From: Nitrospirales bacterium
GTDB lineage: Bacteria > Nitrospirota > Nitrospiria > Nitrospirales > UBA8639
NCBI GenBank assembly: GCA_021603905.1
Contig: BQIU01000022.1
Coordinates: 1-51,322 of the forward strand
Reading direction: 5' to 3'
DNA: 51,322 nt
The number at the start of each line of letters is the position of its first letter. The stretch's first letter is position 1. Positions 7,410 to 29,179 of the stretch are shown piece after piece. Below the pieces are notes generated by a model. It was given only the letters and a program-made list of their open reading frames with translations. It was not told the DNA's origin and searched no databases. Position numbers and translations under genes: made by a program.

Positions 7410-7449
7410 CAGGAATTTGAACATGTTTTTCTGGAGTTTGGACATGTAG
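7410..7449 (+). promoter_or_regulatory. Tandem direct-repeat operator before tonB
   Basis: Two 16-base copies of the element, CAGGAATTTGAACATG (7410) and CTGGAGTTTGGACATG (7431), in direct orientation 21 bases apart, about 100 bases before tonB. The 21-base repeat spacing is that of AraC-type half-sites. No good -10 lies at the distance seen at the other sites. Confidence 0.65.
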
Positions 7450-7544
7450 AACTTACCATGGTCGATGTTAAAGTTGTTATGATTTTGAATTTCGATATCA
7501 ACAAAAAGCACTACAGAATGCCATTGCAGTAGCTTGTTAATTTC

Positions 7545-8756
7545 ATGAATTCTAACGTCACGTTACACCTGAAAACATCTCGATTCACTGTCGCCTCTTG
7601 GATAGGTTCGTTCATATTCCATGGACTCATTATCTTTCTAGCCTTGGAACTTATGGTACATGTCCCCCCCCCACCGTCATCAAAGCCTCACCAGTGGAAT
7701 GTCTCTCTCGTCAAACCCATGCCCTCGCCACAACCGCCACAGCCAAGTCAGACGGTCAAACGAGTCAAGCCAACACAACAAGCTCCGGCCATTCGTCCTC
7801 AGCCAAAGAAACAGATCGCTCAACGCCAACTTCGGACACAACAATCGATCACTCACCAAGTCGTCCACCGACCCCTGCGTCGGCCTGTTACCACACCATC
7901 AGCGATACCTCAACAATCATTACCAAAACCCATGGAACAAACCGCGGTGCGACAATCACCTTCACGCAAGGTCACGACACCTCATCAAAGCATCACCACT
8001 CGGGCTCAACCCGTAAACACTCAACGCCAAGTACGACATGCAACGACAGTGAAGACGACAAATACAAAACATTCAAAGGCCGTGGCCAAAACCGTCACCA
8101 CTGTCCAAACACAGAGCAGTGCACAGCAGACAACACCAGTCAGAACATCTCCCAAACAAGTGAGTGCAACGTCTCAGGTGACAGTCGCCAAAGCCATCTC
8201 TCAACCATCCAGAATCCAAGAGGAAAAAGTACACTCAATGGTCCAGCCCCATTCGGCCGTTGAACGCCCACTGAGTCGTCAACAAGGCGTGGTCGCAAAA
8301 TCAAATACACAACAACAACGCCTGAAACCAGCCATTTTTTCTGGAAGTCCAGATCGTCAAGTAACGAGACGTCTGTCCTCCAAGGCGAAACCTGTCTCAG
8401 CAGCTAAGCCCAAGATTGCTTCGCGACCAAAACCTTCTAAAAATACACGCGTCACATCAAACACCCTCTCACCTGAAGTTCTGGACTTCCTGAAATTACT
8501 TCGGAAAAAAATTCAGAGGCATCGTGAGTACCCACGTATTGCCAAACGACTTGGCTATCATGGCGTCACCACCGTCGCGTTTTCCTTATCGCAAGGCGGA
8601 GACCTCACATTGCTCAAAGTGTCCGAACCCTCAGGGCATTCAATTTTAGATGAAGCCGCCCTGGACGCCATTAAAAAAGTGATTCCCATGAAGCCACCCT
8701 CGATGATGGGAAATGCCGCCATTGAAATCCCCGTGTCGTTTGAATTGCGACGATGA
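7545..8756 (+). CDS. tonB: TonB energy-transducing protein with long low-complexity linker
   Basis: A 403-residue protein: an N-terminal membrane anchor (about residues 14-37, with a His in SFIFHGLII as in TonB anchors), a very long linker rich in Pro, Gln, Thr, Ser and Lys (about 40-305), and a C-terminal TonB domain (about 310-403; QRHREYPRIAKRLGYHG, then VSEPSGHSILDEAALDAIK). It couples ExbB/ExbD proton flow to outer-membrane receptors through the TonB box. The linker is long compared with E. coli TonB (239 residues in total), enough to span a wide periplasm. ExbB and ExbD follow after one unknown gene. The Shine-Dalgarno is weak. The upstream tandem operator suggests iron-responsive expression. 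Confidence 0.9.
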   Translation: MNSNVTLHLKTSRFTVASWIGSFIFHGLIIFLALELMVHVPPPPSSKPHQWNVSLVKPMPSPQPPQPSQTVKRVKPTQQAPAIRPQPKKQIAQRQLRTQQSITHQVVHRPLRRPVTTPSAIPQQSLPKPMEQTAVRQSPSRKVTTPHQSITTRAQPVNTQRQVRHATTVKTTNTKHSKAVAKTVTTVQTQSSAQQTTPVRTSPKQVSATSQVTVAKAISQPSRIQEEKVHSMVQPHSAVERPLSRQQGVVAKSNTQQQRLKPAIFSGSPDRQVTRRLSSKAKPVSAAKPKIASRPKPSKNTRVTSNTLSPEVLDFLKLLRKKIQRHREYPRIAKRLGYHGVTTVAFSLSQGGDLTLLKVSEPSGHSILDEAALDAIKKVIPMKPPSMMGNAAIEIPVSFELRR

Positions 8757-8865
8757 CGACAACGCAACCTCTAACAACAACCGAGTCAATTCAATGTTTC
8801 CGATACACAAATCACCGAGAACAGATCATCAATCTTTTATGGACGTAATAAAAGGAGAACCGACC

Positions 8866-9336
8866 ATGCTAATACGACTGCTCATGACCCTACTCATCCT
8901 CGGATGCCCCATGTTCACTACCATAGCTCTGGCCAATTCATCCGCCTTCACGGCCAAAACCACCGATGCCAGCGGCGTCGAGATGACGCTGGACAATGCA
9001 CGGCTCTACTGGGAAGACCAAATTGATGACACCACGTTTGTCCCGCATGAAATTACCCATGTCCCTGTCAAACGAGGCACCGCCACCATGAATGTCAAGT
9101 TCGAAAATATTAAACATATCGACGTGAAGCCTGGGCAAGCGGATAAAGGCACGGCCTCTCTGAACATTTCGCTTCAAAATGGAAAAAGTGGTGAATTCCC
9201 TTTAGCCAAGAGTGTGAGTCTGATTGGAGACTCTGACTTTGGGCAAATTAAAGTTCCGGTGGAGGACTTGCGAACTATTGTTTTCACAAAAAATACCCCA
9301 ATAGAAAGTGTTCAGTCTCAATCAAAGACCAAATAG
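8866..9336 (+). CDS. Secreted protein of unknown function inside the tonB-exbBD cluster
   Basis: A 156-residue protein with a signal peptide ending at ALA (about residue 22). The mature part has alternating beta strands and Lys/Thr-rich segments; I recognise no family. The start at 8866 is set by AAGGAG eight bases upstream; the longer reading frame from 8713 overlaps tonB and lacks a ribosome site. Its place between tonB and exbB suggests a periplasmic accessory role in the TonB system, perhaps sensing or stabilising, but nothing in the sequence shows this directly. Confidence 0.7.
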   Translation: MLIRLLMTLLILGCPMFTTIALANSSAFTAKTTDASGVEMTLDNARLYWEDQIDDTTFVPHEITHVPVKRGTATMNVKFENIKHIDVKPGQADKGTASLNISLQNGKSGEFPLAKSVSLIGDSDFGQIKVPVEDLRTIVFTKNTPIESVQSQSKTK

Positions 9337-9373
9337 CATCATTGGAGAAAGAACGTAAAAAGGAGCCTCTCTC

Positions 9374-9799
9374 ATGAACTCATTACAAGCGCTCGTCGAT
9401 TACGGAATCATCGGGCTGTTGATTGCCTTAAGCATTTGGGCCCTGGCTGTGGGAACGGAACGATGGATGTTCTATCGACGACTCAACCTTGCTCAGTTTC
9501 CAGACCGACAACGTCTCGAAATTTCTTTAACCAAACGGCTCGTCATTATTGGAACCGTCGCGGCCAATGCGCCATACATCGGGCTTCTGGGTACAGTCCT
9601 GGGGATTATGATGACCTTTCAAAGCATGGGAACGGCAAAAACCATTACCGTCAGCACCATCATGGTCGGATTAAGCTTAGCCTTAAAAGCGACAGCCGTT
9701 GGTCTCCTCGTCGCCATTCCTTGTGTCGTCATGAATAATGCCTTGCGTCGACGAGTCACAGAACTCCTCACAGAACATCAGGTGGTCCATGGATCCTGA
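9374..9799 (+). CDS. exbB: ExbB-type proton channel subunit (short form)
   Basis: A 141-residue MotA/TolQ/ExbB family protein with three membrane helices at about residues 10-30, 60-82 and 93-118. The motif AANAPYIGLLGTVLGIMMTF is the hallmark of the family, and the Thr/Ser-lined helix 3 (KATAVGLLVAIPCVVMNN) forms the channel. It is shorter than E. coli ExbB (244 residues), lacking most of the N-terminal and cytoplasmic parts, like the compact ExbB of some epsilon-proteobacteria. A good AAGGAG precedes ATG 9374. Its stop overlaps the exbD start, so the two are coupled. Confidence 0.92.
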   Translation: MNSLQALVDYGIIGLLIALSIWALAVGTERWMFYRRLNLAQFPDRQRLEISLTKRLVIIGTVAANAPYIGLLGTVLGIMMTFQSMGTAKTITVSTIMVGLSLALKATAVGLLVAIPCVVMNNALRRRVTELLTEHQVVHGS

Positions 9800-10163
9800 A
9801 ATGAATCAAATCAATGTCATTCCACTCGTCGATGTGATGCTCGTCTTGTTGGTGATTGTTCTCACCACGGCCACCTTCATCACCACGGGTCATATTCCAG
9901 TCGATTTAGCCAAGGCATCAGAAGCAGCCGCCCAACCTGATGAACCTATTCGCATCACCTTGACGTCAAAGGGAACGCTGTTTCTCAACGACCAAGAAAT
10001 GTCCAGAGAAGGCCTTATCGCCCAGCTACAAGAGTTTCCTCGAAAAACTCTCGTCGTCGTACGGGCAGACCGGATTATTAAGCTTGAACAATTTGTCGAC
10101 GTTGTCGATGAAGTGAAAGGCGAGGGCTTTCAACAAGTCAGTCTGGCTGTCGAGCGAAAATAG
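9789..10163 (+). CDS. exbD: ExbD-type proton channel subunit
   Basis: A 124-residue protein starting MDPEMNQINVIPLVDVMLVLLVI: the cytoplasmic NxIPLVDVMLVLLV motif contains the membrane Asp (D of LVDVM) that carries protons in ExbD/TolR proteins. A single helix (about residues 11-33) is followed by a periplasmic domain (about 45-120). I chose ATG 9789, which overlaps the exbB stop by 11 bases, since the longer frame from 9738 would extend into exbB without a ribosome site. Together with ExbB and TonB it forms the energy unit for the receptors nearby. Confidence 0.92.
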   Translation: MDPEMNQINVIPLVDVMLVLLVIVLTTATFITTGHIPVDLAKASEAAAQPDEPIRITLTSKGTLFLNDQEMSREGLIAQLQEFPRKTLVVVRADRIIKLEQFVDVVDEVKGEGFQQVSLAVERK

Positions 10164-10398
10164 CTTCAACTAGAATCGGCAAGCAATGAGGCGAATTCAT
10201 ACATGTTAACTTCTCTTTGAAAGACCTAGCCGAGATGGGCATAAAAAACTATGGCCGTCTCGACTATTCTCCGAATAGTTAGAGTGAACTGGACACCCTT
10301 CAGATCTTTCTAGTAATCTTCTCTACCTCTCGCTTGAATTTTTCTCTCCATCATCAAGGAATAATTTCCCCACAAAGATAGACTAAATAACGAATGCC
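10164..10398. other. Intergenic stretch downstream of exbD
   Basis: No gene is recognisable here. A small hairpin, CTATTC paired with GAATAG near 10264-10279, has no T run, so I do not call it a terminator. The repeat copy A begins at its end. Confidence 0.4.
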
Positions 10399-10577
10399 TA
10401 TAGCCGCTTCGAATAACTTCCTCATGTTTGAAGCAAGTAATCGCGCGGGCTTGGCGATCTCAAGTCGACACCTCAGGAGCAGACCCGCGTTGAACGTCAG
10501 TGACCTATTGAGGTTACGCAGGATCACACAACAATCGTCGCCAAGGTTGCAGCTGGAACTTATTTGGATTCGCTATA
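10399..10577. repeat. MITE-like interspersed repeat, copy A
   Basis: Bounded by TA-TAGCCGCTTC on the left and GGATTCGCTA-TA on the right, 179 bases including the TA pair on each side. Ends and interior match copies B and C in this window: the left end with its AACTTCC and TTTGAAG segments, then CAACAATCGTCGCC and CTGGAA with ATTTGGATTCGCTATAGC. It lies between exbD and the first receptor gene, outside the predicted operator. An apparent reading frame across it is an artefact. Confidence 0.8.
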
Positions 10578-10732
10578 GCTTCGGGAATACTCGACCTCGC
10601 CAAGAGACGCTCTCCTCTTTTCATAACAATGCTTATTTGCCACGCCTCACTCAACCATTCCTTTTAGAGGGTAAACGATAGCTTCTCATCTCAGGCAATC
10701 GCCAGCTCTTCTTTGCATTTCATGCTGATTTT

Positions 10733-10796
10733 CCAGAAATCAATATCTTTTTCTGGAAAATGAACATTCTCCGCATGCCCAAACTTCTCCTATACT
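10733..10796 (+). promoter_or_regulatory. Operator and promoter of the first TonB-dependent receptor gene
   Basis: The proximal element CTGGAAAATGAACATT starts at 10753; a weaker copy with one base deleted starts at 10733, 20 bases upstream. A perfect inverted repeat of 12 bases (10728-10739 with 10750-10761) overlaps them. TATACT at 10791, 38 bases after the start of the proximal copy, is a near-ideal -10, so the proximal copy would overlap -35. Confidence 0.7.
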
Positions 10797-10918
10797 GACC
10801 AGCCTTTTTGAGTCACGACTTAAAAGACATAACAGACGCACCGACATCTGTGTTTCGTTTATTTCCATTCGGCAACCGGCATCACGATTCATTGACAAAA
10901 TCTTTTACGGGAGAATTC

Positions 10919-13219
10919 ATGCGTATTCATGATGGTCGATTGGTACTACTCATTGTCAGTTGGCTAGGGTTGACGGGGCTGCCATTACCTAGCGCAGCAG
11001 AAGTTTCAATAGTAGAAGAGCACAAGCCAAACACCGAACCTCCGCTTACAGAAACCCTCGATACACAAGATGCAGCCAATGAAGTAAAACCCCAAGCATC
11101 GATCAATCAGACAGTATCTCCTCAAAGGATTAAGCTGAAGCCCGTGACCGTAACGGCAACTCGGTTCGAATCACCCTTGTCGTCTATCCCAGGCTCCGTC
11201 ACAGTCATTCCACCCGAAACCATCAAAGAACAAAGCTTGCTCACACGAAACCCGAGCGATCTTCTGGGAAAACTCGTTCCTGGCCTGGCCCCGGGCAATC
11301 AATCACCGACAAACAATCCTATAGGCAGTAATGGCGGACAAACACTTCGAGGTCGAACCGCATTAGTCTTGATCGATGGCGTCCCGCAAACGTCAATCCG
11401 GAATGCCGGCCGGGACCTGCGAACTATTGACCCCTCTGCAATTGATCGAATAGAAGTCGTTCGTGGTGCCACATCGATCTATGGCGATGGCGCCACTGGC
11501 GGCATCATCAATATCATCACTAAACGACCAAATTCGGAAATTCCGACATGGACAACTGATGTCATGATCAACTCTGCTCCAACGAATCCGTCAGCCAGTT
11601 TCGGAGGACGGTTTGCGCAATCACTTTCAGGAAAGAAATCCGGCGTCGATTACCTTGTAAGTGGTTCGTACGAATATGTCGGGGGGGTGTTTGATGCCGA
11701 TGCCAGTCGGGTTCCCCCAGATTTGTTAAGCGCTCAAGGAGGACTATCCGATCTCAGCGTCTACAACATCATGGGAAAATTTGGCTATGATTTCTCTCAA
11801 CAACGCATCCAACTTACCGTCAATCATTTCCAGTCACAACAAGATACAGATTACGCGTCAGACCCAACGGTGAACACGCTTCCTCTAAAATCCGTGCGTG
11901 CTCGATCACGTAAAGGTCTCAAATTAGACGATCAACCGGAATCCCGGAACACCATGGTCAATCTGGACTATACCCATCAGAATATCTTTGGAAGTCGAGT
12001 GCATTCCCTGGCCTATTATCGCAATGCGTTAACACGGTTTCAGCCCTTTGACGGTCAGGCCATTGCCAGTCTTGGGAACAACATCACGCAATCACGAGTG
12101 GAATCAGAGGAAATCGGATTTCGACTGGAGATCAATACCCCCATTCCGCTTCCACGCGTCACATCACCACGCCTTTTGTGGGGACTCGACTTCTCTCGGG
12201 AAGAAGCTTCTCAGCGTGTTGCAATCATGGATCCTACCGCATTCAATAATTCGAACGGGCTTGTATTTCAAAAGGTTGATGATCGTGTGTGGGTTCCCCC
12301 GTTGGAACAACGCAATCTTGGATTATTCGGACAACTGGAATGGAGCCTATTGGAGAATTGGATTCTTCAAGGAGGCATTCGCTATGAACGCATTGATCTC
12401 AACCTTGACTCGTTTACAACACTGGCTGGAAATACCATTGCAGGAGGAGATCTTGATTTTGACGCAACCGTTTTCAATGCCGGAACAGTCGTTTTTCTCA
12501 CGGATGCTGTCAATGTCTTTTTTAATTATTCACAAGGCTTTTCTATTCCCGATACTGGATTAATTCTTCGAAGCGCTCCCGCCAGCTTTTCTTTTGCGTC
12601 CTCTCAACTTAAACCCATTGAAGTAGATACCTATGAGCTGGGAATTCGCGGAGAATGGCACACCTTCCAAACTTCACTCTCCGGATTCTATAGCGAATCG
12701 GATTTTGGCGTCTCTTCCAACGGATTCGCCGCAAATGTCATACGCGCTCCGGAACGCGTATGGGGAATCGAAGGCACATTTGACGTTCAACCGGACGAAG
12801 CCTGGGCTTTGGGAGGCACACTCACCTGGCTCGAAGGTGAAAACGATGTAGACCGCGATGACAACTACGATGCGCTAAATGGATTTCGGGTACCACCGGT
12901 CAAGTTAACCGGATATATTGAACACAATACGGTCCCTGAGTGGAAATGGAAAAACCGCATTCAGATTCTCTATGTTGGAAATCGTAACCCCGGGCTAAAC
13001 CCTATGTCCTTTGGAGGAAGGCCAGTTGAAAGTTATACCGTGCTGGATCTCATTAGCACAATTCAGGCTGGACCAGGACTCCTTCGCTTTGGCATAGAAA
13101 ATCTTCTTAACCAAGATTATTTCAATACTACGGCTCAACTTCTGAGGACCGGAAGGAACGACAGTTATACAGCCTCACGAGGGATGGTCGTCACGCTGGG
13201 CTACCGCGTACAATATTAA
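10919..13219 (+). CDS. TonB-dependent outer-membrane receptor 1 (iron siderophore/heme type)
   Basis: A 766-residue receptor. Signal peptide to about residue 28, a 60-residue Glu/Pro-rich extension, then TonB-box-like RIKLKPVTVTATR and the plug (PGSVTVIPPETI, GGQTLRGRTALVLIDGVPQTS, IDRIEVVRGATSIYGDGATGGIINIITKRP), followed by a 22-strand type barrel ending NLLNQDYFNTTAQ and a final aromatic GYRVQY. It imports an iron chelate with energy from TonB. ATG 10919 has GGGAG upstream; the longer frame has no ribosome site. It closely resembles receptor 2, including the unusual N-terminal extension, so the two are paralogues. The ligand cannot be read from sequence. Confidence 0.92.
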   Translation: MRIHDGRLVLLIVSWLGLTGLPLPSAAEVSIVEEHKPNTEPPLTETLDTQDAANEVKPQASINQTVSPQRIKLKPVTVTATRFESPLSSIPGSVTVIPPETIKEQSLLTRNPSDLLGKLVPGLAPGNQSPTNNPIGSNGGQTLRGRTALVLIDGVPQTSIRNAGRDLRTIDPSAIDRIEVVRGATSIYGDGATGGIINIITKRPNSEIPTWTTDVMINSAPTNPSASFGGRFAQSLSGKKSGVDYLVSGSYEYVGGVFDADASRVPPDLLSAQGGLSDLSVYNIMGKFGYDFSQQRIQLTVNHFQSQQDTDYASDPTVNTLPLKSVRARSRKGLKLDDQPESRNTMVNLDYTHQNIFGSRVHSLAYYRNALTRFQPFDGQAIASLGNNITQSRVESEEIGFRLEINTPIPLPRVTSPRLLWGLDFSREEASQRVAIMDPTAFNNSNGLVFQKVDDRVWVPPLEQRNLGLFGQLEWSLLENWILQGGIRYERIDLNLDSFTTLAGNTIAGGDLDFDATVFNAGTVVFLTDAVNVFFNYSQGFSIPDTGLILRSAPASFSFASSQLKPIEVDTYELGIRGEWHTFQTSLSGFYSESDFGVSSNGFAANVIRAPERVWGIEGTFDVQPDEAWALGGTLTWLEGENDVDRDDNYDALNGFRVPPVKLTGYIEHNTVPEWKWKNRIQILYVGNRNPGLNPMSFGGRPVESYTVLDLISTIQAGPGLLRFGIENLLNQDYFNTTAQLLRTGRNDSYTASRGMVVTLGYRVQY

Positions 13220-13367
13220 TAAACTGCATGTTGTCGAAATCAGCCTTTTCATAGAAAACGGCAAGAGGTCGCTTTCGGTGTCAAGACCAAGGCCAAAGCC
13301 CACACATCAGCATCGCCCTTCGTTCAATAGAAGAAGGGGGAAGAATATTTCCCTAAGCTTTCATTTT

Positions 13368-13432
13368 CCAGTCATCCAACACATTTTTCTGGAAAATGAA
13401 CATTCTCTTAATGAACAGACCTTGTTTATACT
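13368..13432 (+). promoter_or_regulatory. Operator and promoter of the hemP-receptor 2 operon
   Basis: The proximal element CTGGAAAATGAACATT starts at 13389, identical over 16 bases to the one before receptor 1. A weak copy starts at 13368, 21 bases upstream. TATACT at 13427 is again exactly 38 bases after the proximal start. ATTTTCCAG at 13363 and CTGGAAAAT at 13389 also form an inverted repeat. Confidence 0.72.
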
Positions 13433-13458
13433 CCTCCCCGCTCCTATCAAAATTTCCT

Positions 13459-13668
13459 ATGAAGTCTTTAAGCACCAACATGTCTAACCTTGACCTGAAG
13501 ACCCAATCAGGGACTTCAGGAAAACCTGTCAGGACAAGAACCCCATCACATCCGATTTTTGAGAGCCTGGACCTCTTCCAAGGCCATCAGAAAATTACCA
13601 TCATTCATCAAGGACAAGAATATACGTTACAAGTCACACGTCAGGAAAAATTGCTCCTGACCAAATAG
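13459..13668 (+). CDS. hemP: Hemin uptake protein HemP family
   Basis: A small protein of 69 residues (or 62 from ATG 13480) whose C-terminal half reads ESLDLFQGHQKITIIHQGQ then EYTLQVTRQEKLLLTK. This is the HemP pattern: S-x-x-L-F-G, then I-x-H-x-G-x-x-Y-x-L-R-x-T-x-x-x-K-L-I-L-T-K. HemP genes sit beside heme or siderophore receptors and in some bacteria act as regulators or helpers of heme uptake. Here it lies 90 bases before receptor 2 and 54 bases after the operator, so they are probably co-transcribed. There is no clear Shine-Dalgarno at either start, so the N terminus is uncertain. Confidence 0.82.
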   Translation: MKSLSTNMSNLDLKTQSGTSGKPVRTRTPSHPIFESLDLFQGHQKITIIHQGQEYTLQVTRQEKLLLTK

Positions 13669-13758
13669 TTCAACGCCAGCGTCCCAGGGTAGCTTCTACC
13701 GTCAGTTGGGTTGCCAGCCAACATCGCACATTTCCCCAACTAGTTAGTAGGAGAATCT

Positions 13759-16020: not shown

Positions 16021-16044
16021 TTCTACCACCCATATGAGTGAATC

Positions 16045-17157: not shown

Positions 17158-17199
17158 GAAATAAAGAACTTCTCTAGTGGTCATTACTATGATTTCGAA

Positions 17200-17709
17200 T
17201 CAATTCCGTGAGGAACAGAGTGGGGTAGCCGTCGGCTTAACAGCGACCTTATTCCCAGTATCGCGTCCTTGCTGTTCCTGCGTGCTCTCACTTTCTTCAT
17301 TTGAGTTTTCGAAGACACGGATGATTCCGGTATGGTTCGGACGATGTAAGGGGCCCGTTCCAGCTAGCAATCTATTCAAGGCATCGTCGAGGGTGAATTT
17401 TCCTGAAACGCCTTGCGTTTGTCGTCTCTTCATTAACGTTGCATCATAGGTCAGGTGAACTCCACCCTCTTTAGCAAAGCTCGTTAACGCTGACTCTAGT
17501 TCTCCTGGTGAAACTCGAAACTGCTTCAATTTACGGTCAGTGTCTGAGGCCAACGGCGAAGCCTCTTGCTGTGTAACTTGAATAACAGTTGACTCATCTG
17601 CTCTGACCTCATCGAATACCAGGCCACTCAACAGGAATCCAACGGTTACACACCAAAAGGTACGTTGAAACCATGGTGTGTTGTGGTCGTTCAAACACAC
17701 AAGATACAT
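17200..17709 (-). CDS. Free-standing STN domain protein (secretin/TonB short N-terminal domain)
   Basis: A 169-residue exported protein: hydrophobic segment about residues 17-34, then an STN domain at about 60-130 (KLKQFRVSPGELESALTSFA, then GVHLTYDATLMKRRQTQGVSG, then FTLDDALNRLLAGTG). In FecA-type receptors this domain sits at the N terminus and signals to an anti-sigma protein; here it is alone and the receptors nearby lack it. AAGGAG precedes ATG 17709. The C-terminal 30 residues are polar and probably disordered. The gene lies on the opposite strand between the receptor 2 operon and fbpA, with its own operator upstream. It may be a detached signalling module or a periplasmic adaptor. Confidence 0.8.
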   Translation of the reverse strand: MYLVCLNDHNTPWFQRTFWCVTVGFLLSGLVFDEVRADESTVIQVTQQEASPLASDTDRKLKQFRVSPGELESALTSFAKEGGVHLTYDATLMKRRQTQGVSGKFTLDDALNRLLAGTGPLHRPNHTGIIRVFENSNEESESTQEQQGRDTGNKVAVKPTATPLCSSRN

Positions 17710-17814
17710 CGTAAATTCTCCTTAGATTGATTCCTCTAAATCGGGACGACACATGAAAGAAATTGAAAATTGGCACTGCAATGACGCTAAGGGGGCGCAA
17801 ACAAATGGAGCGGT

Positions 17815-17872
17815 ATCCTAGACGAACATCGCCTTGAAAGGAATGTTCAAATTCCTTAGTTAAACATTCCGG
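17815..17872 (-). promoter_or_regulatory. Operator and promoter of the STN protein gene
   Basis: On the minus strand AAGGAATTTGAACATT begins at 17857 and a second copy, CCGGAATGTTTAAC, begins near 17873, slightly closer than at other sites. TAGGAT at 17820-17815, 37 bases after the proximal start, can serve as -10. The gene starts 106 bases further on. Confidence 0.55.
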
Positions 17873-17937
17873 CAAGATTCGAACGGGGAATATCGTCAAG
17901 AAAATTTAATGGATCATTCTACGTTGCATTGCGAATA

Positions 17938-18114
17938 CTACGCACTGTTAGCACCCCATGTGAGCTCACGAATCATGAAAAGACAGTCGTTAAAAACGAA
18001 TATGACAATGAAAAGCATAGGCCCTAACAGTTTCGAGAAATTTAATATCCGCTCTTTTTTCGACATCTCATTAGCGATGTCTTTTGACTTTTTCCCCTTA
18101 ATAGCGTTCTTCAT
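17938..18114 (-). CDS. Possible small single-helix membrane protein
   Basis: A 58-residue frame starting MKNAIKGKKSKDIANEMSKK, i.e. a strongly basic N-terminal region, followed by one hydrophobic segment (LLGPMLFIVIFVFNDCLFMI, about residues 29-48) and a short tail. AAAGGA lies ten bases before ATG 18114. The charge-then-helix layout is protein-like, but the local sequence is AT-rich and I know no homologue. It lies upstream of the STN gene on the same strand, with that gene's operator in between. Confidence 0.35.
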   Translation of the reverse strand: MKNAIKGKKSKDIANEMSKKERILNFSKLLGPMLFIVIFVFNDCLFMIRELTWGANSA

Positions 18115-18144
18115 TTGACACGTCCTTTCCATTCACACAATTTT

Positions 18145-18209
18145 CTGGAAAATGCACATTCCAATTCTGGCGATTGAACATGTTTTTACCTAGTGCTGGT
18201 GCCGTATGG
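18145..18209 (+). promoter_or_regulatory. Tandem operator and promoter of the fbpA-like gene
   Basis: Two direct copies: CTGGAAAATGCACATT at 18145 and CTGGCGATTGAACATG at 18167, 22 bases apart. TATGGT at 18204, 37 bases after the proximal start, fits a -10. The gene starts at 18249. Confidence 0.72.
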
Positions 18210-18248
18210 TAGTTCAAACTTTTTCAATCTTGACGAAAGGAATATATC

Positions 18249-19358: not shown

Positions 19359-19363
19359 TCAAG

Positions 19364-19406
19364 AAGAAGGTGTCACAACTCTTCAACAAGGTTGTGACAC
19401 CTTCTT
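19364..19406 (+). terminator. Long hairpin after the fbpA-like gene
   Basis: A perfect 16-base stem (19364-19379 with 19391-19406) around an 11-base loop, five bases after the stop codon. There is no T run after it, so it may terminate poorly or protect the 3' end of the transcript. Confidence 0.6.
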
Positions 19407-19583
19407 GAGCCATACTCAATGCCTACGAGTTATCCCTGCAAACGAATTTTGTGAAAATCGAACGAGACTATGGGCAACATGCTCTATCCCCACCTGTCAT
19501 TGTCTTGGAGTTTCGCATGATCATCGAATCATCCATCACCTCTTGAATCTGTCGTACCCCATACTTGTTTCACGATACATTTC

Positions 19584-19646
19584 CTGGAAATTTGCATAAT
19601 TTTCCGGAAAATGAACATTCCGCAAGGCCTGAGTCAATGCTATTAA
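19584..19646 (+). promoter_or_regulatory. Tandem operator, distal pair, before receptor 3
   Basis: Direct copies CTGGAAATTTGCATAA (19584) and CCGGAAAATGAACATT (19604), 20 bases apart. TATTAA at 19641, 37 bases after the proximal start, could be a -10 and abuts the Fur-box-like site. A second operator pair lies 300 bases downstream, so receptor 3 may have two promoters. Confidence 0.62.
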
Positions 19647-19669
19647 TTGAAAATGATAATGCATTTCAA
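19647..19669. promoter_or_regulatory. Fur-box-like site before receptor 3
   Basis: A near-palindrome with TTGAAA and TTTCAA arms around ATGATAATGCA, close to the GATAATGATAATCATTATC consensus. It overlaps the region just after the possible -10 of the distal promoter, where a bound repressor would block transcription when iron is plentiful. Confidence 0.6.
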
Positions 19670-19888
19670 ATTCATAAATAAACGTCACGCCCATTCTTCT
19701 TCCTGTCATTATTATGCTCAGACCCTCATGAGCCGCCAGGCACCACCGATGTTTCGGCCACAACCATTTGCACCAGAGGGCGTTCCATACATCAACCTCG
19801 CCACGCTTCTTGCACAAATTTCACCGTGCTGAATCATGTTATTTTTCGTCACTTCAAAATATACACGTTTTCTATTGATTAATCGTTC

Positions 19889-19953
19889 CTGGTTTTTGCA
19901 CATCTATTTCTGGACTTTAAACATTCCCCTTCTCTCTATATTTCAAGTATTCA
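19889..19953 (+). promoter_or_regulatory. Tandem operator, proximal pair, before receptor 3
   Basis: Direct copies CTGGTTTTTGCACATC (19889) and CTGGACTTTAAACATT (19910), 21 bases apart. A weak -10 candidate TATTCA at 19948 is 38 bases after the proximal start. The receptor gene starts at 20092. Confidence 0.6.
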
Positions 19954-20091
19954 TACGTTCCGTTTCAAATACAACACTACATGTTTCCATGCCTTCGAAT
20001 TAACGTCGTTTGATTGGCGGCATTTGAGGAAGACACCGTACCTCTTTCCTCAAAGACGTCTATCTTTTTTATTTCATCAAAGGAGACACGA

Positions 20092-22191
20092 ATGATCCAA
20101 CGGGCAATCAGGTTACAGCGCGCACTGTTATATCTTTCATGTATGGGAATACTTCTTTCTACATTTTCTATACGCAACATGGCTAAAGCCGAAACATCTG
20201 AGGCCATGCGCACCACACCTGACACTGAAGAAGAAGGCCTCAAAGTGAAATTAAAAGAAATTAAAGTCAAGGCCAAGACGCAAGAACTGAAAGAACACCC
20301 TGGAGCCGCCACAGTGATTACGAAGGAAGCTATCGAAGCCTTTAAACCTATTAGCACCGTTGAAATTCTCCGGAGGGTCCCCGGCATTCATGCACCGGAT
20401 GAGTATGGCCGCGGACTTCGTCCTAATATCGGGATTCGAGGAATGAATCCAAACCGAAGTGAAAATGTCTTGCTCCTGCTTGACGGAGCACCCATCCAAC
20501 CGGCCGTGTATGGAGCCGCATCCGCGTACTTTAATGTCCCGATCGAGCAGATTGAACACATTGAAGTCCTCAGAGGAGGTGCATCGGCCTTATATGGACC
20601 CAACACGGTTGGCGGTGTCATTAATTACATCACATACCGCCCTCCGCTGACTCAAGAGATCAATATCCGTGAAACGATACGCGCCGGCGAACAATTTTCT
20701 TCAACCGTTTCCTATGGCAACACATTCAATGAAACGGGTGTGCAATTTCAATACACCAACAATACCGGGAGGCTGGTCCGGGAGAATACCGACATCCAAC
20801 TCAATGACGTGGCGGTGCGCTTTACCTTTCCCGTTGGTCATAGCGGACAAGCCGATCTTCGCTTGAGCGGATATGTCGAAGAGTCGGATACCCCTGGCGG
20901 CTTGTCGGCCGCTCAGTTCAAGGATGATCCAAAGCAGAGTCAGCGATCGAATGACGAGTTCTTTGGACGTCGATACTCTGGCTATTTTCGATTGACTCAA
21001 CCGATATCCAAGAGTCTGAAGTTTGATGCCATGACTTATACCAATTCGTTTCAACGTGATTGGTTTATTGCCGACGGCCCAGATGCCACCGCAACAGGGA
21101 ATTCACAATTTGTCCGTGACTTCTTTGTAGTAGGAATTAGACCCATCGTGGAATGGTCTCCAAATAGTCGAATCAACGTCGTTGGAGGCGGAAAAATCCA
21201 TTTTGAAGAACAAGAAGACATTGTCCGCCTTGGGACAACGCCTGATGCTCGAAATGGAACCGTCGACCAAGAGGCTGAGTTATCAACTCTGGCAGGAACA
21301 GTTTTCACCACCGCCAAGTTAGAACCCATCAAAGGACTGATTATTTCACCCGGCATCCGTTTTGAACGGTTCACACAAGAACGAGAAGTTGGATTGAGGG
21401 CAGGCACAGGAGCCGTAGGCGGCAGCTTAACAACCGAAGAAGTTGTTGGTGGAATCGGACTCTTATATCACCTACCTCTTGGCATTGAAGTCTTTGGAAA
21501 TTACTCCAGAAACTTTCAACCTCCCACGTTTAGTGAGGCCACTGATCCCACGTCCGGAACAGCCAATGATCTTGGTGTAGAAACCAGCAACAACTATGAA
21601 CTGGGATTTCGCTCCAACATCAGTGATTTAGTGTTCATCGAAGGGACCGGCTTTTGGATCAATTTCGACAACCAAATCATTGAAGAAGCCGGCGTCCTTA
21701 CGAATGCGCAAAAAACCAGACATCGAGGAATCGAAGGGACTATCAATGCAGGACCATGGCATGGATTGAACGCAAATTTTAATGCCACACTTCTCGAAAC
21801 CGAATTTTTAACCGGGGCCAATAAGGGAAATGAACTTCCCAGCGCACCAGAATTGCTCTTTAACTGGGCTGTCTCCTATGCCGTTGACACCGATCTGGGC
21901 CTGGCCAGAATCCAAATGGATGGAACCTTTGTGGCTGAACAGTTTGCCGATGCAGCCAATACCGTTCAAGAAACTGCGGACGGAAGCAACGGTCAACTGC
22001 CCTCCTATCATGTCACCAATTTGCGACTGGACTTCGGCATTCCCAATACCTTCGCAGGAGACATGAACCTCTTTGCGGGCGTGACCAACATTACCAATGA
22101 AAAGTATCGAATTCGGCGTCAGGCATTCGTCAATGGAATTATTCCGGGGTTAACCAGAGTGTTCTATGGCGGCATCTCGCTTGATTTTTAA
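20092..22191 (+). CDS. FecA-like TonB-dependent receptor 3
   Basis: A 699-residue receptor: signal peptide to about residue 36, TonB box-like VKLKEIKVKAK, then a plug with GAATVITKEAI, STVEILRRVPGIHAPDEYG, NIGIRGMNPNRSENVLLLLD and the end of the plug EVLRGGASALYGPNTVGGVI. This layout matches the FecA/YncD group rather than receptors 1 and 2, and there is no STN domain. The barrel ends with a terminal Phe. ATG 20092 has AAAGGAG upstream; the longer frame adds 26 residues without a ribosome site. A DUF4198 protein and a PepSY protein follow at 27 and 9 bases, forming an operon for uptake and handling of an iron (or other metal) complex. Confidence 0.92.
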   Translation: MIQRAIRLQRALLYLSCMGILLSTFSIRNMAKAETSEAMRTTPDTEEEGLKVKLKEIKVKAKTQELKEHPGAATVITKEAIEAFKPISTVEILRRVPGIHAPDEYGRGLRPNIGIRGMNPNRSENVLLLLDGAPIQPAVYGAASAYFNVPIEQIEHIEVLRGGASALYGPNTVGGVINYITYRPPLTQEINIRETIRAGEQFSSTVSYGNTFNETGVQFQYTNNTGRLVRENTDIQLNDVAVRFTFPVGHSGQADLRLSGYVEESDTPGGLSAAQFKDDPKQSQRSNDEFFGRRYSGYFRLTQPISKSLKFDAMTYTNSFQRDWFIADGPDATATGNSQFVRDFFVVGIRPIVEWSPNSRINVVGGGKIHFEEQEDIVRLGTTPDARNGTVDQEAELSTLAGTVFTTAKLEPIKGLIISPGIRFERFTQEREVGLRAGTGAVGGSLTTEEVVGGIGLLYHLPLGIEVFGNYSRNFQPPTFSEATDPTSGTANDLGVETSNNYELGFRSNISDLVFIEGTGFWINFDNQIIEEAGVLTNAQKTRHRGIEGTINAGPWHGLNANFNATLLETEFLTGANKGNELPSAPELLFNWAVSYAVDTDLGLARIQMDGTFVAEQFADAANTVQETADGSNGQLPSYHVTNLRLDFGIPNTFAGDMNLFAGVTNITNEKYRIRRQAFVNGIIPGLTRVFYGGISLDF

Positions 22192-22218
22192 CTCTCACCT
22201 AATCTGAAGGAGACGATC

Positions 22219-23022
22219 ATGCTACACACATATAGAACTTTCACTGGTTTTACGGCATTGCTGCTAGGACTCGTGCTCTCAGCCACCAATACGTCTGCAC
22301 ATTTTGTCTGGATTGAAAGTCCATCGGCTCTTCCACCAAATCAACCGACAATCGTCAAAGCCTACTTTGGGGAATATCAGGAATCACTCAAAGAACAGAC
22401 TGGAGGACGACTGGATGAACGCGCCGGTTTGACCTCATGGCTGATTGAGCCGAACGGAAACAAGCGTGTCCTCGAGATAACCCAAGAAACCAACTACTTT
22501 CGAATACCCGTCAAACTGAACAATCCCGGCATGTACAATCTGATGGCGATTGATCAAGACGAACCCGTAAGAGACGGGACGCCCTATCCCAGTATCGGCA
22601 TGCACTATAAGCCGATGTTTTATGCTCGCACACAATTTTCAATTGCAACACCCCCTGCGTCGTCAGAACATCACACACAGACGACCGAAACCCTGCAGCT
22701 AGATATTGTCCCCAGTCAGCCAACTTCATCCAAGTCATCCGACTCGCTGACCGTGAATGAGAAAATGGAATTTCAAGTCATCTTTAAAGGACAGCCACTC
22801 GCCAAAGCGAAACCGGTCGCCTATGCGCCTAATGGATGGAGCAAAGAATTAGAGACCAATGATTCAGGCGTGACACACTTTACTCCGATCTGGCCAGGAA
22901 CGTATGTCATTGATTATGTAAATCTGGAAAAGACACCAGGAAAATTTCAAGATCAACCATATGAGGCGATTCGGCATCGAGCAACGCTCACCATCCATGT
23001 TGCCGAATCGCAACGAAAATAG
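22219..23022 (+). CDS. DUF4198 periplasmic protein, metal-uptake associated
   Basis: A 267-residue protein with a signal peptide ending TSA before HFVWIES. The mature N terminus HFVWI, the segment GKFQDQPYEAIRHRATLTI near the end and the two beta-sandwich-like halves match DUF4198, a family found beside TonB receptors and Co/Ni/Fe uptake genes. The N-terminal His after cleavage could bind a metal, but this is inference. AAGGAG precedes ATG 22219. It lies between receptor 3 and a PepSY membrane protein with no room for promoters, so it works with them. Confidence 0.82.
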   Translation: MLHTYRTFTGFTALLLGLVLSATNTSAHFVWIESPSALPPNQPTIVKAYFGEYQESLKEQTGGRLDERAGLTSWLIEPNGNKRVLEITQETNYFRIPVKLNNPGMYNLMAIDQDEPVRDGTPYPSIGMHYKPMFYARTQFSIATPPASSEHHTQTTETLQLDIVPSQPTSSKSSDSLTVNEKMEFQVIFKGQPLAKAKPVAYAPNGWSKELETNDSGVTHFTPIWPGTYVIDYVNLEKTPGKFQDQPYEAIRHRATLTIHVAESQRK

Positions 23023-23031
23023 CACCATCCG

Positions 23032-23811
23032 ATGTTATGGAGAACTGAGCGATGGTCTCGGAAAGCTCACCGAATCATCGGCCTATCATGCGTTGGTTTT
23101 CTGTTGTTTATGGTCATCACCGGGCTGCTTTGGGCTAATGCCCGATTCACGTACTGGGATAAGGGATACAAGGAACGGGTGGGCCGAATAGCACCGGCTC
23201 CCCCGTTAACATCCGCACAGGTTTCCCTGGACGATTTGTTCAACCAATTGAACCATGAAGCCGTTGCGTCAGACAGAACGATAGAAGAAGTCATTCTCCG
23301 TCAGGACTTTGGCCGATTGTTGTATGAAGTTCGACTCTCCGGCCAACCGGCGCCATCAGCGATTCTCATCGATGCTCTCACAAACGAACGCCTTTCACCC
23401 CTTTCCACGGACGCTGGAATGATCGCCCGACAATACATCAAAGCAGACTCTCAAATCACGGAGGTCACCATGGAACAGTATGTTCCTCACAATACGACGA
23501 TCAACCTGGAAGCCATCCGTATCAATTTTGGAGAACCAGGTCCCGCCACGATCATCCTTGACCGTCACACAGGAAAAATTCTTGAGGATGAAAGTACATG
23601 GCGGCAAGTTCATTTTCTCGTCAAGCAATTTCATCAACTCAACTTCTTCGGATTCAACAAGACCCTCCTCAACATTCCAGGTCTAGCTATCTTCATCATG
23701 AGCCTGAGCGGTCTGTGGCTGTGGAGACTGCAGGTCGTCAGAGAACAACGAGCCCGACAAAAAGCTTTACATTCGGAATACCAGGACCCTCGAACCACCA
23801 GCCAATCATGA
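23032..23811 (+). CDS. PepSY-domain inner-membrane protein
   Basis: A 259-residue protein with a membrane helix at about residues 14-36 (KAHRIIGLSCVGFLLFMVITGLLW), a periplasmic part with PepSY-type sequence (TIILDRHTGKILEDE about residue 175), and a C-terminal helix (NIPGLAIFIMSLSGLWLWRL, about 214-234). The KxHRxxGL motif before helix 1 is shared with PiuB-type proteins such as the one at 16045, but this is a short two-helix form. It starts nine bases after the DUF4198 gene and is probably translationally coupled. It likely helps take iron from the imported chelate at the inner membrane. Confidence 0.8.
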   Translation: MLWRTERWSRKAHRIIGLSCVGFLLFMVITGLLWANARFTYWDKGYKERVGRIAPAPPLTSAQVSLDDLFNQLNHEAVASDRTIEEVILRQDFGRLLYEVRLSGQPAPSAILIDALTNERLSPLSTDAGMIARQYIKADSQITEVTMEQYVPHNTTINLEAIRINFGEPGPATIILDRHTGKILEDESTWRQVHFLVKQFHQLNFFGFNKTLLNIPGLAIFIMSLSGLWLWRLQVVREQRARQKALHSEYQDPRTTSQS

Positions 23812-23897
23812 TCCGACCCTGCCAAGGGTTCAGCCATGGTCCTTGTCCAAAACTCATAAAGTCCACCTCATTTTCTACAATTCCTCATATTCCATTT

Positions 23898-23934
23898 CTC
23901 TATATTCTGTATGCGATTCTGGAATTTGAACATG
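23898..23934 (+). promoter_or_regulatory. Operator element before the 24025 gene cluster
   Basis: One good copy, CTGGAATTTGAACATG, starts at 23919. A much weaker one starts 21 bases upstream at 23898. The expected -10 is not convincing here; TTGACA at 23949 may instead be the -35 of a promoter with TATTAT near 23978, although that spacing is long. Confidence 0.55.
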
Positions 23935-23989
23935 TTTTTTCCTTTTAATTGACATGGCCGAGTGCGCCACGTACAAGTATTATGAAATT

Positions 23990-24008
23990 GATAATGATAA
24001 CCTATATC
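23990..24008. promoter_or_regulatory. Fur-box-like site before the 24025 gene cluster
   Basis: GATAATGATAACCTATATC matches 16 of 19 bases of the classical Fur box. It lies 17 bases before ATG 24025, well placed to repress the three-gene cluster when iron is sufficient. Confidence 0.72.
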
Positions 24009-24024
24009 ATTTAAGGACAACGCG

Positions 24025-24444
24025 ATGATATCACTATTACGGAAAACACGGCGAAGACGCAGATCAGTGAGAAAAGTCAGCTCTCTCATTGTGCCCCTCT
24101 TTTTGCTCTGGAGCCTGACCGCCATTGCCTCTGCCGCTCCACCCATCGAACCTGAAGACGAGTACCTCGTCAATGAGGAAGTTAATAGTATCGCAGGCCT
24201 GTACTTTCGCGAATACTCGCTCATGCAAAATGGCGTCATCGACTATAAAACGGCACGCCAAATTATCGTATCTGAGTACAACGAATTCTGGAATACCGTC
24301 GTCCACACCAAAGAACACCCTTTATTTTATTGGTACGACGAGAATCAAGATGGTCACATGTACATGTGGGTTGATCAAAAGGTCGAAGGCTGTTCATGCG
24401 ATATCATCCTCTATGAGGCCACATATTCGGAGAATGCGCAATGA
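24025..24444 (+). CDS. Small secreted protein with EF-hand-like segment, iron-regulated context
   Basis: A 139-residue protein: a very basic N terminus (RKTRRRRRSVRK), a signal peptide hydrophobic core to about residue 38 (ASAAP), then an acidic, aromatic-rich mature part. YDENQDGHMYMWVD (about residue 107) resembles a DxNxDG calcium-binding loop, though position 12 of the loop is Val rather than Glu. A CSC pair lies near the C terminus. I know no family for it. Its TGA overlaps the next ATG. The operator element and Fur box upstream place it in the iron response. Confidence 0.7.
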   Translation: MISLLRKTRRRRRSVRKVSSLIVPLFLLWSLTAIASAAPPIEPEDEYLVNEEVNSIAGLYFREYSLMQNGVIDYKTARQIIVSEYNEFWNTVVHTKEHPLFYWYDENQDGHMYMWVDQKVEGCSCDIILYEATYSENAQ

Positions 24445-24671
24445 TAACAGCAGGAGAAGCGCATCGATTCATACAATGGCTCCAAGACGGAACTCAGCAA
24501 GAAACAATTTTCACGTTCGAACTTCGTCACAGGGATTCCCTGAAGTTCTCAATGAAGAGTTTCCCCAACGAAAAGGCTCTCTTCAAAGAGACCTGGAAAC
24601 AGATACAGAGAACACAGGCATCCAAGTCACTGCACCATACACACATTCCAATAAGGAGGAGATTTTCATGA
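24441..24671 (+). CDS. Small basic protein, translationally coupled, unknown
   Basis: A 76-residue frame that starts in an ATGA overlap with the gene before it and ends in an ATGA overlap with the gene after it. Two such overlaps in a row are unlikely by chance and support real translation. The protein has no signal peptide or membrane helix and its last 20 residues are His/Arg-rich (HHTHIPIRRRFS), though that part is also the ribosome site region of the next gene. No family is recognised. Confidence 0.5.
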   Translation: MITAGEAHRFIQWLQDGTQQETIFTFELRHRDSLKFSMKSFPNEKALFKETWKQIQRTQASKSLHHTHIPIRRRFS

Positions 24672-25123
24672 ATGCATCAAATCACGCTCGACCAATAAGA
24701 CGTAGGCTCTCGCTACTCATCAGTCTGGGAATCATGATGCTCACCTCCGGAACTGCGCTCGCAGCTCAAAGTCATGAACAAGTGAAATCCGACATGGCTC
24801 AATCAGCACACATTCCCATTGACCAAGCGGTTCAAGCGGCCATCAAGGAGGTGCCTGGCACCGTGATTAAAGCTGAGCTCGAAAAAGAACATGGGCCACT
24901 CATGTGGGAAATTGAAGTCGTCGCCGCAGATGGAAAGGTCAAAGACGTCCATATTGACGGCACAAGTGGAAAACGCTTGGCCCTTCACGGAAGCAATGAG
25001 ACTCCTCAAGCATCTGAGTCAGGCATTCATGCCGGCACAGCTGACAAGGGAAACACAAACATGCCCGGACAGAGTACGGAATCATCGGCGACTGAAGAGA
25101 CCTCGACCAAGATGAACCCATAA
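24668..25123 (+). CDS. Secreted PepSY-domain protein
   Basis: A 151-residue exported protein. Signal peptide to about residue 36 (ALAAQ), then one PepSY domain: IPIDQAVQAAIKEVPGTVIK, then LMWEIEVVAADGKVKDVHID, then GTSGKRLAL. The C-terminal 50 residues are rich in Ser, Thr, Gly and Glu and probably disordered. GGAGG eleven bases upstream sets ATG 24668. It is the third gene of the Fur-box-controlled cluster. Soluble PepSY proteins are thought to modulate periplasmic enzymes or accompany metal uptake; here the iron context favours the latter. Confidence 0.8.
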   Translation: MNASNHARPIRRRLSLLISLGIMMLTSGTALAAQSHEQVKSDMAQSAHIPIDQAVQAAIKEVPGTVIKAELEKEHGPLMWEIEVVAADGKVKDVHIDGTSGKRLALHGSNETPQASESGIHAGTADKGNTNMPGQSTESSATEETSTKMNP

Positions 25124-25131
25124 GACATGTT

Positions 25132-25161
25132 CGCCCTTGAGATCACGAACTCTTGAGGGCG
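25132..25161 (+). terminator. Probable terminator hairpin after the PepSY gene
   Basis: Arms 25132-25142 and 25151-25161 pair over 11 positions, including two wobble pairs, around an 8-base loop. A short T run follows only at 25172, so termination may be weak. Confidence 0.5.
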
Positions 25162-25242
25162 GGCAGACAACGATTTTTGCGTGAATACATACAACACCAG
25201 CAACGCTATTGAGTGAACGATCTACCAAGAGAGGGGATCAAG

Positions 25243-25626
25243 ATGATTTCTGAACGCCTAGAAAATAACACTATCACGATTAGTATTCACGGGGCGTTTG
25301 ATGCTGAAACGGCCCAAGAGTTTTCCTTTACCGCTCGACGTGCGTATCGTATGGGTTTTCGTGATTTTTACGTGAGCCTGAAACCCGTAAGCATGATCGA
25401 CAAGGCAGGCCTACGGTTACTCTCAGACATTATGCATAAGCTAGAACAACAAGACTGTACTGGATGCATTATTCATTCGCCGTCTTCTCTTCAAACTGAG
25501 CTGCATCCTTCTCGGAAAGAAAGGGGTCTTCCTCCAGTACGCAGAAGACGCTCAACACCTCCTATGGCCGATTCAATGAACCTTCTAGACTTTGAAGTGC
25601 TTAATGACGCAGCGATAGTTGGATGA
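25243..25626 (+). CDS. STAS-domain protein with C-terminal end supplied by a repeat insertion
   Basis: A 127-residue protein. Residues 1-85 form a STAS domain like that of anti-sigma-factor antagonists: NTITISIHGAFDAETAQEF, then FRDFYVSLKPVSMIDKAGLRLL; the position of the phosphorylatable Ser is taken by MIDKAG with Asp/Lys, so regulation by phosphorylation is doubtful. The start at 25243 follows GAGAGGGG. From 25563 onward the frame runs through copy B of the interspersed repeat, so the last 20 or so residues are not original. There is no anti-sigma kinase gene beside it. Confidence 0.72.
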   Translation: MISERLENNTITISIHGAFDAETAQEFSFTARRAYRMGFRDFYVSLKPVSMIDKAGLRLLSDIMHKLEQQDCTGCIIHSPSSLQTELHPSRKERGLPPVRRRRSTPPMADSMNLLDFEVLNDAAIVG

Positions 25627-25656
25627 GTCACCTGGAAGACATTTGGATTCGCCATA
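25563..25656. repeat. MITE-like interspersed repeat, copy B
   Basis: A 94-base copy bounded by TA-TGGCCGATTC and GGATTCGCCA-TA. The left half aligns with copy A (AACCTTC and TTTGAAG segments), the right half with CTGGAA and ATTTGGATTCGCCATAGC. It overlaps the end of the STAS gene and reaches to within 47 bases of the next start. Confidence 0.75.
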
Positions 25657-25702
25657 GCGTTCACTCAGTACCCGGTCTCACAATCTTAGGAGCCTCATAA
25701 CC

Positions 25703-26137
25703 ATGAAACCTCTACTCGAAGGGATTTCTTCTCAATGGCCGCCTCCTCCTCATGACCCTCGTGACCGAACACGCGTTGGACGAATTGATGGATGGGAAGT
25801 CAGAATGTTTTCACAACACGACACCCAACGCAAGTATTTCGTACACAAGGCGTTTACGCACTTACAGCTATGGCATCCCAATTGGAAGGTTTCCGTACTC
25901 ACGCCCTCTCACTTGACGGGAAATTTCTATGAACTCTTTCCCTTTCGTGGGGCGAAACTCCCAATCTGCTGTATCACCACTGTGAATAACATCTTACAAC
26001 AGCAGCTTGAGGTTCCGGGGATTGATCCGATGATTTTACAATTCATGGAGCAATATTTCTTTTCTGATGAATCACTCCGGACCGTACCCGTTCACTCACC
26101 TGTCAAGACTGTCCCCTATGTCAAAAACAGAGGCTAA
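25703..26137 (+). CDS. Conserved-looking protein of unknown function
   Basis: A 144-residue soluble protein without signal peptide or membrane helix. Aromatic and His-rich middle (RKYFVHKAFTHLQLWHPNWK), then ELFPFRGAKLPICCITTVNN and an acidic C-terminal part. I do not recognise a family. A good ribosome site (TTAGGAG) precedes ATG 25703. It may share a transcript with the STAS gene. The next unit has its own operator-like element at 26178. Confidence 0.55.
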   Translation: MKPLLEGISSQWPPPPHDPRDRTRVGRIDGWEVRMFSQHDTQRKYFVHKAFTHLQLWHPNWKVSVLTPSHLTGNFYELFPFRGAKLPICCITTVNNILQQQLEVPGIDPMILQFMEQYFFSDESLRTVPVHSPVKTVPYVKNRG

Positions 26138-26177
26138 AACCAAAAGGATAAACGCCGGCTTGTGCTATTAAGGCAGG

Positions 26178-26240
26178 TAGAACGGTGAACATGTTTTCCT
26201 GACATTTTGACCTGTTAATCAGTCCAGGAATACTTACTAT
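26178..26240 (+). promoter_or_regulatory. Degenerate tandem operator and promoter before the Com-like gene
   Basis: A copy ending GGTGAACATG starts at 26178 and CTGACATTTTGACCTG starts at 26199, 21 bases apart. TACTAT at 26235, 36 bases after the second start, fits a -10. Each copy is weaker than those before the receptors, but spacing and position agree. Confidence 0.45.
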
Positions 26241-28887: not shown

Positions 28888-28909
28888 ATATTCACAATAA
28901 AAACAACTC

Positions 28910-29179
28910 ATGCATGACTACCCATTACCACCCAATATCGAACATCTTCCACTGGGGATTGGAAATTTCTTTTTCCTGGCCAGGAGGCGCACCCATGCTC
29001 CTACTCTCCTCCTCGCTGTCTCTTGGCCCTCCCCTATCTTTGAGGCTGACAAGATTCCATTGAGCAAACTCAACTTCATGAATTTCCTGCACCATGAATA
29101 TGCGTGTAGACGTGCAACACAACCCAAAACTTCTGTTTTCCCATTTTCCGACACACTTGCTATTGGAGGATACTCATGA
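28910..29179 (+). CDS. Possible small leader protein before the peroxiredoxin-like gene
   Basis: An 89-residue frame that begins 22 bases after the Fur-box-like site and ends in an ATGA overlap with the next gene. The overlap suggests coupling, but there is no ribosome site at ATG 28910 and the composition (many Pro, Leu, His, Phe) is not clearly protein-like. The alternative is a 270-base untranslated leader. I do not recognise it. Confidence 0.3.
   Translation: MHDYPLPPNIEHLPLGIGNFFFLARRRTHAPTLLLAVSWPSPIFEADKIPLSKLNFMNFLHHEYACRRATQPKTSVFPFSDTLAIGGYS

Follow-up and report, generated by a model that had tools for sequence, protein, structure and literature searches.

The window considered here is a stretch of 51,322 nucleotides that makes up contig 22 of a 4.74 Mb Nitrospirales genome in 203 contigs (completeness 90.8%, contamination 7.5%), the source organism of which is a relative of the nitrite-oxidizing bacteria. 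Many microbes of aquatic habitats are limited by iron, and heme and iron-sulfur proteins abound in nitrifiers. The window harbors tonB-exbBD, three receptor genes and other iron-context genes, and before these is found a 16-base element with a half-site consensus close to CTGGAAAATGAACATT. It also encodes, at 6189..6728 on the plus strand, an AraC-family regulator of 179 residues, referred to here as 6189, in which the DNA-binding domain (residues 70-177) follows a short helical N-terminus. Judged on this protein, the nearest named relative is Nitrospirales bacterium NPIRA04, at 91% identity. The element and its probable relationship with this regulator are the subject of this report.

When up to three mismatches are allowed, the 16-mer is found eight times in the window against 0.98 expected, and none of 100 shuffled sequences reaches eight; the recurrence of a 16-base element before the iron-context genes, as proposed in a preliminary description of this DNA, is thus real. 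Two of these matches are inverted (10721 and 13356) and one is intragenic (24878). Half-sites were also scored as pairs at a spacing of 20-22 bases, with a matrix in bits that was trained on the window sites themselves, and six places reach at least 16 bits (7410, 18145, 19889, 19584, 23919 with a weak partner, and 28931), compared with 0.15 per shuffled window. Owing to degenerate distal halves, the receptor 1 and hemP sites score below 16 bits as pairs. For searches beyond the window an operator profile was built from 19 pairs together with the downstream bases up to the -10 position.

Two recognizable halves at a spacing of 20-22 are present at four of the nine window places. The first of these pairs (7410-7425 and 7431-7446, plus strand, spacing 21) is a profile match, recurs before tonB in the related loci L031, L032 and L033, and precedes tonB itself (7545..8756, plus strand, Pfam TonB_C), the first gene of a tonB-8869-exbB-exbD series in which exbB and exbD were named from position and by eye. 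The second lies before the fbpA-like gene (18145..18182, plus strand), with halves at 18145 and 18167, a spacing of 22, a -10 hexamer TATGGT at 18205-18210 and a profile match. Receptor 3 is preceded by two pairs on the plus strand, both profile matches: an upstream operator at 19584..19619, with halves at 19584 and 19604 (spacing 20, or 21 in another register), and a downstream one at 19889..19925, with halves at 19889 and 19910 (spacing 21). At four further places only one half is good. These are receptor 1 (10732..10768, plus strand; proximal half 10753-10768 perfect and also present in L032, distal half degenerate, -10 TATACT at 10791-10796, profile match), hemP-receptor 2 (13368..13404, plus strand; proximal half 13389-13404 perfect, distal half degenerate, -10 TATACT at 13427-13432, profile match), the gene at 24025 (23898..23934, plus strand; proximal half 23919-23934 strong, distal half weak, profile match), and the STN gene, the operator of which (17842..17878, minus strand; proximal half 17842-17857, weak distal half 17863-17878) was read from the sequence and has no profile match. 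The site before the small, Com-like open reading frame at 26298 (26178..26214, plus strand, halves at 26178 and 26199, spacing 21) is a profile match with moderate halves. A direct half-site repeat with a 21-base period, as in AraC-type operators, is therefore clear at four of the nine places, and the earlier claim of direct pairs 20-22 bases apart is clearly borne out at these four only.

Beyond the window, the single 16-mer proved too weak a query for the whole genome (94 matches against 45 in the reversed control), and pair models were used instead. The pair profile is specific. At E<=0.01 the pair profile, for which 150 of 1470 first-pass candidates were scored, gives ten matches in 4.7 Mb, eight on the window contig and two on contig 3; nine of the ten are training sites, so that the result speaks for specificity rather than discovery. 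Both contig-3 matches stand before ECF sigma-factor genes, the first of which is confirmed by Pfam and the second of which is followed by a FecR gene (Pfam). A third ECF-type gene on this contig, also followed by a FecR gene, has a strong half-site with a poor partner at C3:32824 on the minus strand. Here and in other genomes ECF labels were assigned by eye, except for L005 656-1204 (Pfam). The genome has five weaker matches, with E-values of 0.047 to 2.3. Four of them (C7, C11, C27 and C9) all lie inside open frames and were judged to be chance, and the fifth belongs to the fbpA-like site, of which it is the distal part.

The 21-base period is itself specific. Half-sites that score 15 bits or more were picked singly from all the sequence collected, which gave 76 distinct ones, and a same-strand partner of at least 5 bits is found at -21 in 20 of them and at +21 in nine, whereas any other offset gives three or fewer (0.21 per background offset); a pair with two strong halves enters this count under both signs, and the count leans toward 21 because pair searches had brought in some of the loci. 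Across a sample of 245 Nitrospirota genomes, the present one included, a degenerate pattern with period 21 has 20 exact matches; at period 20 it has no exact match, and 25 matches when one mismatch is allowed.

The layout of the promoters was compared over 34 sites chosen by hand rather than as a census, with weak matches left out: eight in the window (the STN site excluded), two on contig 3, 11 from relatives, and 13 from other sampled genomes, which hold 55 profile matches. Several of these promoters are homologous, and homologous tonB promoters fill many of the rows. A TATAAT-like hexamer (at least four of six bases) begins 37-40 bases after the start of the proximal half, and 58-61 after that of the distal half, in 30 of the 34; other four-base windows score between three and 23. 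The count is biased, as 14 of the promoters were found by the profile that contains the -10 hexamer. Of the 20 promoters identified independently of the hexamer, 16 have it; most other windows score one to nine, but one equals it with 16, at the usual location of the Fur-like boxes. The -35 position agrees with TTGACA at only two to five of six bases. The exceptions to the hexamer are the second receptor 3 site, 24025, the Com-like site and the tonB promoter of L036. Three of the eight window promoters therefore fail this cut.

Many of the pairs are followed by sequences that resemble a Fur box. Scored against a 19-base Fur-box consensus, 17 of the 34 promoters show a match of at least 13 of 19 positions in the stretch 45-105 bases downstream of the distal start (0.9 expected), and ten show one of at least 14 (0.0 expected); in nine the best match is below 12. 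Within the window, such a sequence (19649..19667, plus strand, 14 of 19) lies downstream of the upstream receptor 3 pair, and two overlapping ones (14 and 16 of 19) occupy 23984..24008 on the plus strand. These boxes and the ECF/FecR targets are additions to what had been inferred earlier.

The regulator has a C-terminal double helix-turn-helix of the AraC/XylS type (Pfam HTH_18 2e-22, HTH_AraC 6e-17), and is the sole PF12833 match in its genome. Its AlphaFold model is all-helical, confident over residues 70-177 and of low to moderate confidence for helices 10-38 and 45-60 of the N-terminus; there is no Pfam effector domain in the protein and no effector barrel in the model. By sequence and fold, AraC, MarA and SoxS are matched among solved structures, mainly over the DNA-binding domain (3.5e-17 for that of AraC). 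Near 6000-6189, upstream of the gene, there is no pair of at least 10 bits and no Fur-like match of at least 13. Sites do lie upstream of the regulator ortholog in G191 (a profile match) and at L039, L045 and L051. In one Nitrospira metagenome-assembled genome (L057 3293-4109), a regulator homolog with an in-frame stop is preceded by a good operator pair.

Orthologs of 6189 (E<1e-20, with a gap down to 1e-15) occur in 30 of the 245 genomes, the present one included, all from the same order. Exact period-21 pairs are found in seven of these 30 compared with four of the other 215 (Fisher p 4.9e-5), and pairs with one mismatch in 17 compared with 30. The sample holds 76 further genomes from this order, of which 62 were run against the operator profile: all 29 with an ortholog and 33 of the 47 without. 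At E<=0.01 it finds sites in 13 of 29 ortholog-bearing genomes against two of 33 (p 7e-4), where, as before, shared ancestry means that the Fisher p-values overstate independence and are indicative only. The L032 and L033 sites were in the training set, and removal of the genomes from which they come, G242 and G206 respectively, leaves 11 of 27; at E<=0.05 the figures are 15 of 29 and six of 33. The cleanest contrast is seen inside one genus, g2, where all nine genomes have TonB-type matches. The three with exactly one AraC-family match (G179, G202 and G229) hold three, three and seven pairs with at most one mismatch, 13 in total, whereas the six without an AraC protein (G065, G081, G173, G187, G199 and G244) hold 0, 1, 0, 0, 0 and 0.

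The pairs also recur around the regulator itself in relatives. At 32 such loci there are 18 pair matches of at least 14 bits, two of which overlap at one L033 site, against 2.0 expected, and nine of at least 20 bits against 0.33. A pair stands 75-138 bases before tonB in nine of the 22 tonB-bearing loci, some of them from close species. Sites before tonB are found in several genera, and part of the Nitrospirales shares the layout. G242 again has a pair or a strong half-site at tonB, receptor 1, the STN gene (pair, 21.0 bits), the fbpA-like gene (which keeps the spacing of 22), receptor 3, 24025 (18.6) and the Com-like place (30.4). The same genome has a pair or strong half-site before one ECF-type gene and a half-site at a second. 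Profile matches precede an ECF-type gene in G206, G189 and G210, weakly in the last (E 0.038), so that sites before such genes are found in the present genome, G242, G206 and G189.

Taken with these results, we consider it quite probable that the repeats are tandem operator half-sites of the 6189 protein, that activation is of the class II type with a Fur overlay, and that the targets are iron-uptake genes. The computation supports the sites, their spacing, their co-occurrence with the regulator, the promoter geometry, the Fur-like overlay and the target genes. An AraC-type activator, probably 6189, had been suggested at the outset, and the link between regulator and site appears well supported at the level of sequence because 6189 is the only AraC-family match, the site tracks its ortholog across the 245 genomes and inside one genus, pairs stand before tonB in relatives, and the 21-base period is specific. 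A dimer or two monomers of 6189 would occupy the half-sites in head-to-tail orientation, and the 21 bases between them, about two helical turns, would keep both on the same face. Of the two, the proximal monomer would abut the poor -35 place and bring RNA polymerase to a -10 whose distance hardly varies, in the style of class II activators of the AraC family. When iron is plentiful Fur would block the start region at many of these promoters; with Fur off and the AraC protein active, the iron-uptake genes would fire. For 6189 we infer DNA binding, activation, a response to iron and a position in a cascade from the sequence, and the regulon would comprise the TonB energy module and outer-membrane receptors, as well as FecI-type sigma-factor genes elsewhere in the genome.

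Several observations weigh against this reading, in addition to the bias in the hexamer count and the shared ancestry already mentioned. A clear pair is missing at five of the nine window places, and the hemP site does not recur at its G242 homolog. No profile site at E<=0.01 is found, under strict filters, in 16 of the 29 ortholog-bearing genomes, including all 12 of genus g7, and when 22 relative loci, some of the g7 type, were searched around the regulator for pairs that had diverged, three with at most two mismatches came up, all known, compared with one in shuffles. Conversely, G187 lacks an AraC protein, yet has one profile match (E 4.8e-4), and G081 has an exact pair (L207 8453-8492, minus strand) without any AraC-family match. 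The latter may be a relic; no homolog of 23 window proteins is found in the 15 kb of sequence that contains it, and a transposase-like frame, recognized by eye, lies downstream. Finally, the status of 6189 as the only AraC protein could change, given the completeness and contamination of the assembly.

Alternatively, the pairs might be read by another regulator, such as a Fur-family protein, a response regulator or some other factor, with the AraC gene adjoining them by chance. There are four Fur-family matches in the genome, genus g7 retains the ortholog without detectable sites, and G081 has a pair without it. We nevertheless regard this as unlikely, as the pair is a direct and not an inverted repeat, Fur-like boxes exist as separate sequences, and co-occurrence with the AraC ortholog holds inside one genus. 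It is quite unlikely that 6189 reads the pairs mainly as a repressor, a role with a precedent in IurV, an AraC-family protein that, according to PMC7600106, is involved in repressing most iron uptake systems of Vibrio cholerae: a proximal half just upstream of a -10-like hexamer, together with a poor -35, is the usual layout of an activator, and repression is already offered by the Fur-like boxes. That the repeats, which contain GGAA, serve as -35 elements for ECF sigma factors, an idea suggested by the ECF and FecR genes among the targets, is very unlikely: the -10-like hexamer is TATA-type and begins 37-40 bases from the start of the half-site, a distance that exceeds what a -35/-10 pair allows, and two copies 21 bases apart are unexpected for a sigma factor.

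A tandem operator for 6189 can be set beside several known systems. AraC at araI binds direct half-sites 21 bases apart that abut the -35, but 6189 is without the arabinose-type sensor domain and has other target genes. Single-domain activators such as MarA, SoxS and RamA likewise have no recognizable effector domain, and the solved-structure match to them is mainly over the DNA-binding domain; 6189 differs in its extra helical N-terminus and in its tandem-pair sites, MarA-type proteins being known to bind single sites. Co-control by Fur is a feature of PchR/YbtA/AlcR-type systems. As described in PMC7600106 and PMC3672683, an AraC-family protein likewise governs iron-uptake genes in these systems, where it activates genes for siderophore receptors and siderophore synthesis, and the effector of PchR is given as ferri-pyochelin in PMC3672683. 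In contrast to the PchR type, 6189 has only about 70 residues before its DNA-binding domain in a protein of 179 and no recognizable N-terminal effector domain, and its regulon, unlike that of PchR or YbtA, would include tonB-exbBD and FecI-type genes. FecIR surface signaling has its parallel on contig 3, in the ECF-FecR pairs and the STN receptors. Whereas E. coli fecIR is controlled by Fur, the ECF genes here bear AraC-type sites themselves. Contig 3 (L246 and L204) carries three FecR-type genes at C3:19649, 31431 and 37544, together with ECF-type genes, three of which bear AraC-type sites or half-sites, and an STN receptor.

With FecI-type sigma-factor genes among its targets, the AraC protein would therefore be the upper tier of a cascade. 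We raise as a tentative possibility, in which we place well under even confidence, that an AraC protein devoid of an effector domain acts in these Nitrospirales as the master activator in iron limitation, governing TonB, receptors and FecI-type sigma factors together, at promoters the start of which is overlapped by a Fur box, through a two-key control (AraC on, Fur off) above surface signaling, and that its N-terminus is a new sensing or pairing module. Searches of the open-licence literature gave no title or abstract opening that describes a defined iron-uptake operator in the Nitrospirales. With an operator, a regulator and a set of targets defined, iron regulation becomes directly testable in a mostly uncultured group, and the site model can be used to annotate further genomes.

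Some of the targets deserve further comment. The fbpA-like gene encodes a solute-binding protein, the best NCBIfam matches of which are phosphonate binders below the cut-off, and its role in iron rests on context. The STN gene (17200-17709, minus strand) has a FecA-like signaling domain only, matching residues 20-90 of FecA. In G242 (L199) the homolog is a 304-residue frame that overlaps a receptor-barrel-like frame, and in L036 it is a single frame of 840 residues, so that the window gene may be what is left of the 5' part of a full receptor. The Com-like frame at 26298 is without a match in Pfam or NCBIfam. In G206 the 140 bases inspected before 24025 show no site. The proteins of 24025-24444, 25703-26137 and 29176-29721, for which Pfam gives no match, are conserved in G242, G206 or both.

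In the receptor 1 and hemP promoters, inverted half-sites on the minus strand (10721-10736 and 13356-13371) face the proximal copies at 32-33 bases, perhaps reflecting a shared promoter ancestry. A candidate weak pair upstream of 29176 (28931..28967, plus strand, 16.7 bits) is not a profile match and has a Fur-box-like sequence nearby at 28869; in G133 a homolog of 29176 follows a profile match. The region 28728-28893, between a ferritin-like gene (28105, minus strand) and 29176, contains Fur-box-like sequences that match at 13 to 16 of 19 positions.

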